Positions 5,176 to 33,569 of a stretch of 64,000 bases of DNA are shown one piece after another (within the stretch, counting starts at the first letter, position 1; each line of letters begins with the position of its first letter). The stretch spans positions 2,792,451-2,856,450 of the forward strand of contig AP024683.1 in assembly GCA_025999455.1 (NCBI GenBank), given 5' to 3'. The notes under the pieces are model-generated. The model searched no databases and was not told the DNA's origin. It saw nothing but the letters and a program-made list of their open reading frames with translations. Source of the DNA: Geminicoccaceae bacterium (GTDB lineage Bacteria > Pseudomonadota > Alphaproteobacteria > Geminicoccales > Geminicoccaceae). Made by a program: the position numbers and the translations under genes.

Positions 5176-6147
<972 letters not shown>

Positions 6148-30000: not shown

Positions 30001-30945
30001 ATGCGCGTCCTGCCCCGGATCGTCCCCGACGGCACGAACTTCCCGTTCTTCAAGTTCCGCCATTGGGCGTTCGCCGGCTCGGCCGTCGTGATCGTGCTCG
30101 CGATCGTCATGATGGTGGTGCGCGGCTTCAATCTCGGCATCGACTTCGCGGGCGGCATCCTGCTCGAGGTGAAGACCCCGGGCCCGGCCAAGCTCGCCGA
30201 GATGCGCACCACGCTCGGCGGGCTCGGCCTCGGCGAGGTGGCGCTCCAAGAAGCCGGTGCCGAGGACCTCGTCTTGATCCGCGTCGTCCGCCAGCCCGGC
30301 GACGAGAGCGCCCAGCAGGCGGCGATCGAGAAGATCAAGCAGACCCTCGACCAGACCTTCGGCCCCGGCTTCGACTACCGCCGGGCCGAGTTCGTCGGCC
30401 CCAAGGTCGGCGAGGAGCTCCGCCGGGCCGGCACGCTCGCCGTCGTGATCGCCCTCGTCCTCGTCCTCGTCTATCTCTGGTTCCGCTTCGAATGGCAGTT
30501 CGGCGTGGGCGCCATCCTCGCTTGCGTCCACGACGTCTTCGCGGTGCTGTTGGTCTTCACCTTGACCGATCTCGAGTTCAACCTTTCGAGCATCGCCGCG
30601 ATCCTGACCGTCGTGGGTTACTCCTTGAACGACACGGTCGTCGTCTTCGACCGCGTCCGCGAGAACCTGCGCCGCTACAAGACCATGCCGATCGACCAGC
30701 TCATCGACAAGAGCGTCAACGAGACGCTCGCCCGCACCGTGATGACGACCGCGACGACGCTGCTCGCCCTCCTGGCGCTCTACGTCTTCGGCGGGCCGGT
30801 CATCCAGGGCTTCACCTTCGCGATGCTGTTCGGGATCGTGATCGGGACCTACTCGACGACCTACATCGCGGCCCCCGTGCTCTATTACCTCAAGATCCGT
30901 CCCGCCGCCGTCGCGGCGGAAGAGGCGGCGCCGCGGGCGGGTTGA
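30001..30945 (+). CDS. secF: Protein translocase subunit SecF
   Basis: A 314-residue partner of SecD. Family motifs are FNLGIDFAGGILLEV (about 43-57) and the membrane-domain motif VVGYSLNDTVVVFDRVREN (about 205-223). Six transmembrane helices are expected. It starts at ATG 30001, 7 bp after secD. A Mth938-like gene follows 6 bp after its stop, the usual alphaproteobacterial arrangement. Confidence 0.96.
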   Translation: MRVLPRIVPDGTNFPFFKFRHWAFAGSAVVIVLAIVMMVVRGFNLGIDFAGGILLEVKTPGPAKLAEMRTTLGGLGLGEVALQEAGAEDLVLIRVVRQPGDESAQQAAIEKIKQTLDQTFGPGFDYRRAEFVGPKVGEELRRAGTLAVVIALVLVLVYLWFRFEWQFGVGAILACVHDVFAVLLVFTLTDLEFNLSSIAAILTVVGYSLNDTVVVFDRVRENLRRYKTMPIDQLIDKSVNETLARTVMTTATTLLALLALYVFGGPVIQGFTFAMLFGIVIGTYSTTYIAAPVLYYLKIRPAAVAAEEAAPRAG

Positions 30946-30951
30946 GGGGTC

Positions 30952-31347
30952 GTGGAGCTCCGAGCGGTCTCGACCGGCGAGCGCCCCTTCGTCCGCGGCT
31001 ACGGGCCCGGTTGCTTCACGATCGGTCCGAGCCGCTTCACGAGTGCCCTCCTCTTGTTCCCGGACCGGGTCGAGCGCTGGGCACCGGTCGATCCGGAAGC
31101 GCTCGTGGCCGAGGATTTCCGGCCCTTGCGCCCGCTCGCCGGCTCGGCCGTGACGCTCCTCGTCCTGGGGTTGGGGGCCACGAACCGTCGGCTGCCGGCG
31201 CCGCTCCTGGCCGAGCTCCGCGGCTGGGGGCTCGCGGTCGAGGCGGTCGCCACACCGGCCGCCTGCCGGACCTGGAACCTGCTCTTGGCCGAAGGCCGCC
31301 CGGTCGCCGCGGCCTTGATCCCCCTCCCGCTTCCCGACGCCCGCTGA
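30952..31347 (+). CDS. Mth938-like domain protein (NDUFAF3 homologue)
   Basis: A 131-residue protein of the Mth938/DUF498 family. The conserved block GPGCFTIGPSRFTSALLLFP (about 19-38) and the central LLVLGLGA segment are seen. The mitochondrial homologue NDUFAF3 is a respiratory complex I assembly factor; a similar role in bacteria is inference. The GTG start at 30952 lies 6 bp after secF. In many alphaproteobacteria the next gene is a squalene/phytoene-synthase-like gene; here that gene sits at 34318, after a gene-free spacer and two inserted genes. Confidence 0.9.
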   Translation: MELRAVSTGERPFVRGYGPGCFTIGPSRFTSALLLFPDRVERWAPVDPEALVAEDFRPLRPLAGSAVTLLVLGLGATNRRLPAPLLAELRGWGLAVEAVATPAACRTWNLLLAEGRPVAAALIPLPLPDAR

Positions 31348-32785
31348 CGCGATCCGGCCCGGCCCCGCGCCCGATCGTTGCGAACGCAGGGAGGCGATCG
31401 GCCAGGTGATCCGGCTGCGGCGCCCTGAAAAGCGGCGCCACATCGGCCCCGAACGGCCGTCGTGCGGCGCTCCTTCCTTGGACGGGCCCCGGCCTCTCGA
31501 ACACGGCGCCCGATCGGCGTCGGCCCACAGGAGCCCGAAGAGACGAGCGGCCACGGCCGTTTGCCGTTCCGCTCACGCTCGCGCGGACGACCGACCCGGG
31601 AGGTCCTCGATCGCCGCGTCCCGCACGGCGACCCTCGGCGCTGTCCCGACACGCGAGAGCCCGGACCGATCGTCAGCTCCCGATTTTCGAGTTTGCCCGC
31701 CTCTTCGAGCACGCCGCCCTGCGCGCTCGGCCGATTGCGGCGAGGAAGGACGACCGGTCGCGATCCTTTCGGGGCCGTTTCGGTCGTTCGCTCTGACGAG
31801 GACGATCGACCCGCGGGATCCTCGATCGCGGGGTCCCGCGCGGCGATCGTCGCGGACGTCGCAAGAAGCTGGAGCCCCGACGAATCCGGCAGCCCTCGAC
31901 TTTCGAGGTCACCGTCCCTTCGAGCGCGAGGCGCCACTCGGTCGGCCGATCACAGCGAGCGTGGACGAGCGGCCACGGGCTTTTCGGGGCCGTTCCGTTC
32001 GTCAGCCCTCACACAGACGGAACGATCGGCGCGGTCGGCGATCGCCGGGTCCCGTGCGGCGATCGTCGCGGACGTCGCAGGAAGCTGGAGCCCCGACGAA
32101 TCCGGCAGCCCTCGACTTTCAAATTCACCGTCCCTTCGAGCGCGAGGCGCCGCTCGGTCGGCCGAGCTCGATCGGGTGGCCGAGCGGCACGTGCCGACGT
32201 TCGGAGAACGTGACCCGTGGCCTCGCACGGGAGCCGACCGAGCGTTTTCTTTTCTTTGTCGAGCCCGTGATCCGGCCCTAGCCGAATGCAAGGCCGTGGA
32301 GCTCGAGGCCGGTCACCAGGCGGGCCGGGTTGCCGAGGTCGGCTCGCCGTTACGCCAACGCACCGGTCCTACCGGTGTGCGCCCCCGGTTGGGGATCGCA
32401 TGCCCGTCGCCCCGGTTCGCTCGACCAGCGACGCGACCCGCGCGCGTCAGACGAGCCCCTGTGAGTTCACCGGTACGACCTCCGTCCGCCACGGACACGG
32501 TCCGCGAACCGGTCGCCACACGGATGCGGCAGCCGTCCGCGCCGGCGAGGTGAGGATGCGCCTTCGCGTAGGCGGGCCTCGGCGGAAGCGCGTTCGCACC
32601 GAGGCGCAGCGAGACTCACCGAAACGAACGGCCGCGCACGCCGTGGAGCGTTTCGCCCTCGTTGCGCCGCCGAGGACTCCCGAAAAGTTGTGCCGACGAC
32701 GGCCCGGCACCGCCCCGGATCACCGACGGGCCGACATCACGCCGGCACGCCTCTGCAACGGCCGCCGAGCGGCCCCCGCTCCTGC
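31348..32785. other. Gene-free spacer of 1.4 kb
   Basis: This is a convergent interval between the Mth938-like gene and traT. Open frames exist in all six frames, but they are Arg, Ser and Pro rich, have no ribosome sites or family features, and lack the strong third-position GC bias of the real genes. It contains the about 215-bp tandem repeats described separately and a hairpin at 32359-32381 (stem CACCGGT/ACCGGTG, loop CCT). The rest shows nothing I can name. Confidence 0.7.
31556..32200. repeat. Degenerate tandem repeat, period about 215 bp, three copies
   Basis: Three units begin near 31556, 31771 and 31986. Anchor words recur at constant spacing: GCGTCCC/GGGTCCC at 31616, 31831 and 32047, and GGGGCCGTT at 31771 and 31986. 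Units 2 and 3 are about 95 percent identical over 119 bp (31831-31949 and 32047-32165), with about six substitutions. Unit 1 is more diverged, and a possible fourth remnant lies at about 31340-31555 (GAGCGGCCACGG shared at its end). The repeat is not clearly translated in one frame. It may be a degenerate amplified spacer element or structured RNA; function is unknown. Confidence 0.8.
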
Positions 32786-33544
32786 TCAGAAGATCCCGGC
32801 GACCACGCGGGTGAGGCCGTCGACGAGCTGCGGCGCCGCCTCCGGCCAATCGAGATTGACCTTGTTGGCGATCGACATGACGCGGGTCGTGTGCCGCCGC
32901 ATGTCGGTCGTCCGGCTCGAGGTCTGGGCGATCTGGCCCGAACGACCCTGGGCGACCCGGCTCGTGCGGGTCTCGCTCACGACCTCGCCGGGTGCCCGCT
33001 CCTGGATCTGGATGTCGGTGACGATGCTGTAGGTGACGTCCTGCACCGCGGCCCCGGACACCGTCTCGGCGAGGCCGCCGACGATCGCCCCACCCAGGCC
33101 CCAGACCGCGGCGTTGCCCGGCGCCGCCCTGCCGATCACGTAGCCGGCCGTACCACCGACCGCGGCCCCCGTGACCGGCGCCCCGTAGCCGCGCCCGTAC
33201 ATCTGCTCCGCCGCGGTCTCGCTCGTCCGACCCGCCTGCAGTACGTTCGCCTGCAAGATGAAACGGGCACGGCGTGGATCGTCGACGATCTGCCAGCCGC
33301 GGCTCGCGATGCGCTCGCGGATCGGCCGCTCGATGTCGAGATCGGGCTTGTCCGAGGTGTTCTTGACCTCGACGAACACGGTCCGCTCGGACGGCGGGAC
33401 CGGATCGAGGAAGATCGTGTCGGTCATCTTGGTCTGCACGTCGAGCTCGCGCTTGGCGACGGCGGTGTAGGTCGCGGCACAGCCCGACAATCCCACGAGG
33501 GCGACGAGCGCGAGGGCCGTCTTGCGCAGACCGCTTCCGAACAT
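32786..33544 (-). CDS. traT: TraT-type outer-membrane lipoprotein (complement resistance/surface exclusion family)
   Basis: A 252-residue lipoprotein with a signal peptide ending in the lipobox LSGC (Cys at about 22). The mature part matches TraT throughout: KRELDVQTKMTDTIFL, RTVFVEVKNTSDKPDLD, FILQANVLQAGR, two glycine-rich hydrophobic stretches (about 125-160), QDVTYSIVTDIQIQERAPG, and a C-terminal SIANKVNLDWPEAAPQL. On the F plasmid TraT blocks mating and complement; chromosomal members are of unknown role. ATG at 33544 (GGGAGG five bases upstream) is preferred to GTG at 33550, which abuts the ribosome site. No conjugation genes are nearby. Confidence 0.88.
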   Translation of the reverse strand: MFGSGLRKTALALVALVGLSGCAATYTAVAKRELDVQTKMTDTIFLDPVPPSERTVFVEVKNTSDKPDLDIERPIRERIASRGWQIVDDPRRARFILQANVLQAGRTSETAAEQMYGRGYGAPVTGAAVGGTAGYVIGRAAPGNAAVWGLGGAIVGGLAETVSGAAVQDVTYSIVTDIQIQERAPGEVVSETRTSRVAQGRSGQIAQTSSRTTDMRRHTTRVMSIANKVNLDWPEAAPQLVDGLTRVVAGIF

Positions 33545-33569
33545 GAACACCTCCCAATGGCCGCCCCCG

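Follow-up and report, generated by a model that had tools for sequence, protein, structure and literature searches.

Intergenic repeats of the RU/ERIC, REP/BIME and MITE types are dispersed over the bacterial genomes that carry them. Tandemly repeated DNA has been treated in a survey of prokaryotic satellites with units of 10-260 nt, which reports that most long satellite repeats are multiples of 3 and that non-coding families are rare, and which also describes satellites that are unique and intergenic (PMC6749651); for Clostridium difficile it presents satellites that are unique and unrelated to others (Subirana & Messeguer 2019, PMC6749651). None of the literature titles and abstracts matched in our search concerns the array described here, and in the one Geminicoccaceae paper among the matches the passage on tandem repeats belongs to the description of how the genome was annotated (PMC9659566).

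The locus lies in the genome of a Geminicoccaceae bacterium (G000; 71% G+C), in a window of 64,000 nucleotides (positions 2,792,451-2,856,450 of one 3.76-Mb contig) to which all coordinates below refer unless another locus is named. It consists of about 3.5 head-to-tail units with a period of 215-216 bp, at 31446-32194. Like the non-coding satellites of the survey, these units are intergenic, constant in length and not a constant multiple of 3, and their size falls within the surveyed range; unlike the satellites described there, they amount to only ~3.5 diverged copies (PMC6749651). The SATFIND rule of that survey calls for one decamer at least 4 times in 800 nt (PMC6749651), and here none is present in more than two copies across the spacer, so that the array qualifies as a tandem repeat in a general sense and not as a satellite by the SATFIND rule. 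With RU/ERIC, REP/BIME and MITEs it shares an intergenic position, a scale of 100-200 bp and some hairpin potential, and it differs from them in that the unit was found at one locus only. Its copies recur head to tail at a constant period beyond chance and are non-coding, as in other bacterial non-coding tandem repeats, and the array is therefore a small, decayed case of a known kind of sequence, in that general sense. In 464 kb (the window plus 20 stretches of 20 kb, ~12% of the genome), a filter requiring 50 matching bases out of 70 retained no other pair whose lag lay between 100 and 700 without being a multiple of 3; the other lags that passed (21, 27, 243, 297 and 492) are all multiples of 3. 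Three of these (27, 243 and 492) were seen at G000 1,241,249-1,241,859 (L062 1249-1859), which is probably a gene for a repetitive protein.

The array occupies part of a gene-free spacer of 1438 bp, stop to stop, at 31348-32785. To its left is a run of plus-strand genes, secD (28392), secF (30001) and a DUF498/DUF598 open reading frame (30952-31347; Pfam PF04430, E 1.1e-25); its right border is a convergent, minus-strand TraT-family gene (32786-33550; Pfam PF05818, E 4e-72), which is followed by an Fe/Mn superoxide dismutase gene, also on the minus strand. A crude codon-model gene finder likewise leaves the spacer empty. The preliminary description, made from the sequence of the window, had placed a gene-free spacer downstream of secDF; this is correct, and strictly the spacer is 3' of the DUF498 gene that comes after secF.

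A ~215-bp array of direct units spaced 215-216 bp apart had been proposed in that description, and it is confirmed. The lag analysis of the spacer scored 118 for a lag of 216 and 77 for one of 215, where the highest value from 15 first-order Markov sequences was 21; a repeat search listed 146-nt copies at three positions, 31589, 31804 and 32020 (spacing 215 and 216), of which the first and last are respectively 64% and 90% identical to the middle one; and one self-alignment, whose period near 215 bp is significant, reached E 3e-93 over 504 columns. We divide the array, on the plus strand, into a partial and decayed unit U0 (31446-31588), two full units U1 (31589-31803, 215 bp) and U2 (31804-32019, 216 bp), and a partial unit of 175 bp, U3 (32020-32194), which shares 90% identity with U2 across 146 bp. 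U1 was delimited by repeat search and local alignment, U0 by local alignment to U2. In gapped local alignments against U2, judged by 500 dinucleotide-preserving shuffles, U1 scored 176 (shuffle maximum 45), the stretch 32020-32262 that holds U3 scored 250 (maximum 50), and the stretch 31348-31588 that holds U0 scored 57, a small margin over the maximum of 51.5; none of the 500 shuffles reached any of these scores. The array ends on the right near 32194, and the rest of the spacer (32263-32785) carries no repeat signal against U2 (27.5, a score reached by 316 of 500 shuffles). U1 and U0 are ~64-75% identical to the other units, with 66% ungapped identity between U1 and U2 (73 differences in 215). 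U0 is the least certain part of the array. The fourth remnant suspected at about 31340-31555 is thus real, its actual place being about 31446-31588, ~100 bp further to the right, and it comprises just the two-thirds of a unit nearest the 3' end. With a score setting of 40, Tandem Repeats Finder missed the array, presumably because the copies are too diverged.

The similarity of U2 and U3 is unevenly distributed. The two differ at 7 of the first 19 positions and at 8 of the next 128, a split with p = 0.0007 by Fisher's test and 0.013 by a permutation that allows for the choice of the split point; after ~31950 their ungapped similarity is down to background. The ~95% identity over 119 bp noted in the preliminary description is about right, as the inner block 31824-31943 agrees at 113 of 120 positions (94%, the sum of six 20-bp bins). 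The simplest reading of this sequence pattern is that events of two ages are superimposed, old duplications and then a recombination between U2 and U3, a suggestion based on 15 differences in one pair of units.

The array is non-coding. Its G+C content by codon position is flat (0.72, 0.70, 0.71), as is that of the remainder of the spacer, while the plus-strand genes have a strong contrast among positions (SecD 0.70, 0.44, 0.93; SecF 0.66, 0.41, 0.95). Because the unit length is either 215 or 216, no single reading frame is kept through the array. Translation of the spacer in six frames gave no PHROG or NCBIfam match at E 0.01. At a threshold of E 0.1 the only Pfam match of the spacer frames was OB_cyt-4 (E 0.016), which with 16.1 bits against a cut-off of 27 we attribute to chance. 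The absence of a clear coding frame, as first reported, is therefore upheld, and no credible match to a coding domain was found.

Nor has the unit been found at a second locus. Among the best 40 of 356 first-look candidates in its own genome, nothing exceeded matches of 26-46 bases. Thirty other genomes of the family and order, from a set with a single genome for each species and with 22 first-look candidates scored, contained no array-scale match, and matches of 32-50 bases occurred in 3 of them; in a wider set, with 8 candidates scored per genome, 26 of 59 other genomes had matches with E no higher than 0.01, each 21-61 bases long. Because scoring was confined to the best first-look candidates, a relative that is short or highly diverged could have escaped these searches. 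The 21-61-base matches in relatives, the lowest E among them being 5.6e-5, are scattered short G+C-rich stretches, and we have treated them as chance. Searched with blastn, the spacer had no match in plasmids or phages, and a 50-base core of the unit had no exact match in the viral contigs of IMG/VR. The comparison with the genome and its relatives that the preliminary description had proposed thus points to a single locus, with no array-scale copy in 30 other genomes.

The spacer itself varies widely among relatives. Measured between the ends of tblastn hits (the figure for G000 being stop to stop), the DUF498-TraT spacing is ~30 bp in a member of the same genus (G002), 40 in G020, 48 in G007, 52 in G006 and 56 in G011, ~410 bp in G005, ~1302 bp in G003, and 1438 bp here. 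TraT was seen next to DUF498 in 7 of 29 DUF498 loci (the flank of our own locus in that set, L011, is too short to show TraT), and no TraT match was obtained in G001. G004 has the two genes on different contigs, which continue beyond the gene on its 3' side and stop 868 and 1152 bp from the matches; judging from these contig ends, its spacer is probably ~2 kb or more. As five relatives have only ~30-56 bp at this place, the spacer is dispensable, its growth having taken place in this genus. Compared with six other spacers, with 12 base-content shuffles per pair, that of G000 shows no clear similarity: against G001 it scored 61.5 on the plus strand (best shuffle 59.0) and 54.5 on the minus strand (50.0), and against G003, L042 and G004 it was 1 point above the best of the 12 shuffles in the reverse orientation and not above it in the plus orientation. 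A looser alignment, run with no control, extended from the end of DUF498 into the spacers of G000 and G004; with the spacers alone the score was 77, against a control mean of 64 and maximum of 100, and as 51 of 500 controls scored as high this similarity is not significant. The pieces from G004, L042 (a locus assigned to G004 by inference) and G001 exceed the shuffles more clearly when compared with each other, in both orientations (for example 109.5 vs 91 and 102.5 vs 62). Smaller excesses were obtained in the reverse orientation for G003 and L042 (49.5 vs 40.5) and for L042 and G005 (44.5 vs 41.5), and G003 against G002, whose piece held some flanking coding sequence, gave 30 vs 29 in shuffles. 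The G003 spacer (L040 5831-7018) contains direct repeats of its own, three two-copy pairs (5831/5905, 6068/6141 and 6905/6979) with a spacing of 73-74 bp and different sequences, the two best of which reach 30 and 22, the highest control being 16. In this genus the spacer locus is thus prone to growth and duplication, though with differing products.

These results can be interpreted in terms of a lineage-specific non-coding tandem duplication, a minisatellite of long unit and low copy number that was later patched by recombination in a weakly constrained spacer; we consider this the probable explanation, and it is about equally probable that the array has no function of its own. A spacer between convergent 3' ends, short in several relatives, would have gained DNA in this genus, and a stretch of ~215 bp would then have been duplicated head to tail in this species, slippage of a strand or unequal recombination during replication being the likeliest mechanisms. 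The copies would have drifted to ~64-75% identity, and recombination between neighbouring units (gene conversion or unequal crossing-over) may have re-equalised the inner 120-130 bp of U2 and U3. The array, its non-coding character, the one locus found, the varying length of the spacer and the uneven U2/U3 identity are observations; the slippage or unequal recombination origin, the gene conversion and the lack of constraint are what we infer. Of the suggestions made in the preliminary description, expansion by slippage fits best, although tandem duplication plus recombination is the better way to put it. In this sense the array is a modest example of how duplication and recombination enlarge and homogenise bacterial intergenic DNA: its repeats seem to be of two ages, and the spacer around it is ~30-56 bp long in five relatives and ~1.3-1.4 kb in two genomes; it would be more important only if the repeated growth of the spacer in the genus, or transcription as far as the terminator, proved to have a function.

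Other explanations carry less weight. Two plus-strand frames cross the array without a stop, U2 has the length of 72 codons, and the U2/U3 differences are distributed as 5, 1 and 9 over the three positions, all of which would be consistent with the remnant of a gene with 72-residue repeats. This reading is largely refuted, and we give it very little credence: U1 has 215 bp, the U1/U2 differences are spread evenly (25, 20, 28), and G+C by position is nearly flat within each unit. The long frames themselves exist because the array (31446-32194) has no TA dinucleotide in 749 bp and little TG (odds 0.37), a composition that would by itself open frames; of 4471 background windows, 72 lack TA, 7 have TG so low, and none has both properties. 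The 363-aa plus-strand frame across the array has no relative in the 30 other genomes. A 311-aa minus-strand frame, which overlaps DUF498 antisense, has matches in 13 other genomes; in 10 of the 13 the match overlaps DUF498 antisense (G025, G026 and G028 are without coordinates), and where it overhangs DUF498, in G002 as far as its TraT gene, we take the overhang as alignment extension. The composition also includes 10 copies of CGATCG in the 749 bp, against 1.83 expected from the background, a count reached by none of 1805 background windows (maximum 8). Such copies could be binding sites, for instance for a nucleoid protein or a methyltransferase, in an array that organises the chromosome or blocks convergent transcription, one of the possibilities raised at the outset. 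We rate this as slightly less improbable than the gene remnant: the copies are partly inherited between units and only partly in register, the array is at one locus and was not found in relatives, and GC skew in the 20 stretches sampled shows neither an origin nor a terminus clearly. Least probable of all is that a MITE-like mini mobile element was inserted repeatedly head to tail. The hairpin at the boundary of U2 would be in keeping with such an element; the single genomic locus and the lack of plasmid, phage and viral matches argue against it, and none of the 10 inverted repeat pairs listed in 30500-33500 bounds a unit, so that the mini-element first suggested finds no support. The CGATCG excess, the lack of TA and TG, and the T tract with its hairpin described below need not be expected of plain neutral DNA, and these tests were chosen after the data had been seen.

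Transcription of the array as RNA is the alternative to which we assign the most weight, while still regarding it as unlikely. The array would be part of a long 3' UTR of secD-secF-DUF498, or a non-coding RNA of its own, ending at ~32257, and its repeated hairpins would serve as RNase barriers or sponge sites. Past the array, ~900 bp 3' of the DUF498 stop, a G+C-rich plus-strand hairpin of about -25 kcal/mol (z -2.38) is directly followed by the T tract TTTTCTTTTCTTT at 32245-32257; this arrangement (32196-32257) is that of an intrinsic terminator, and we predict that it likely is one. Among 69 T-tract sites in 464 kb it has the lowest hairpin energy by a narrow margin (-25.1, the next being -24.6), and 462,540 bp of background contain not one 13-mer in which 11 or more bases are T (or A); a standard terminator scan, which considers loops of 3-8 only, returned nothing in 30900-33000. 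Among nine stretches of relatives' and own spacers (two of them from G004), terminator-like sites were found only in G000 and G003. If the site works, its position past U3 would allow transcription from the secDF side to run through the array, which may then form a long 3' UTR. A second plus-strand hairpin, at the end of U3 (32145-32195), has -36.7 kcal/mol and z -4.50, and the 5' end of U2 (folded as 31796-31855) forms a strong one on the same strand (-41.9 kcal/mol, z -3.56). The U2 pairs are matched in 72.2% of cells over the three units, against 37.5-47.2% for slid versions of the hairpin, an excess that is expected anyway for a hairpin taken from one of the units; the same 72.2% is below the column-shuffle mean of 75.0%. 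On the plus strand the corresponding region is weak in U3 (z -1.04) and forms no hairpin in U1 (z +0.64), and this failure of U1 to keep it argues against a repeated structured RNA; no pair is altered on both sides, a count which with only three units has weak power. Folding of the whole of U2 is little or no better than that of shuffles on the two strands (z -1.31 and +0.16). The covariance search that had been suggested returned, for the window, nothing at Rfam gathering scores except two tRNAs outside the array, and hence no Rfam family for the array; a microRNA match at relaxed thresholds (E up to 5) was at chance level (19.9 bits, cut-off 80). The structured RNA of the preliminary description is accordingly not supported, lacking a family, a whole-unit fold clearly better than shuffles, and compensation for the hairpin lost in U1. 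Three further points weigh against a transcribed role: the spacer is only 30-56 bp in five relatives, a weaker T-tract site inside U1 (~31684, -15.1 kcal/mol) might stop transcripts before they get that far, and the terminator could work even if the array had no role. A wider form of the same idea is that the spacer after secDF-DUF498 is a growth hotspot of the genus, in which species independently build a tandem-duplicated 3' UTR ending at a strong terminator; the array would then be a recently born, lineage-specific 3' UTR or non-coding RNA that modulates the stability of the secDF transcript or shields it against convergent TraT transcription. This we hold to be more doubtful than transcription alone, and somewhat less so than the binding-site array; tandem duplication with later recombination is the explanation that we retain.

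The corresponding loci of relatives have some features of their own. In G003 (L040) there is a perfect 19-bp inverted repeat at 5721-5739 and 6015-6033, with 275 bp between the arms, the first of which begins with TAA directly after the TraT match. The pieces L052 (G001) and L042, translated in the three frames of a single strand, contain no Pfam match. Stretches of 77-78% G+C extend past DUF498 or TraT up to the end of the contig at L052 842-2759 (G001) and L012 1849-2716 (G004), and L042 5410-6561 is also 77-78% G+C to the contig end; the stretch in L052 is nearly without TA, with 2 in 1918 bp.
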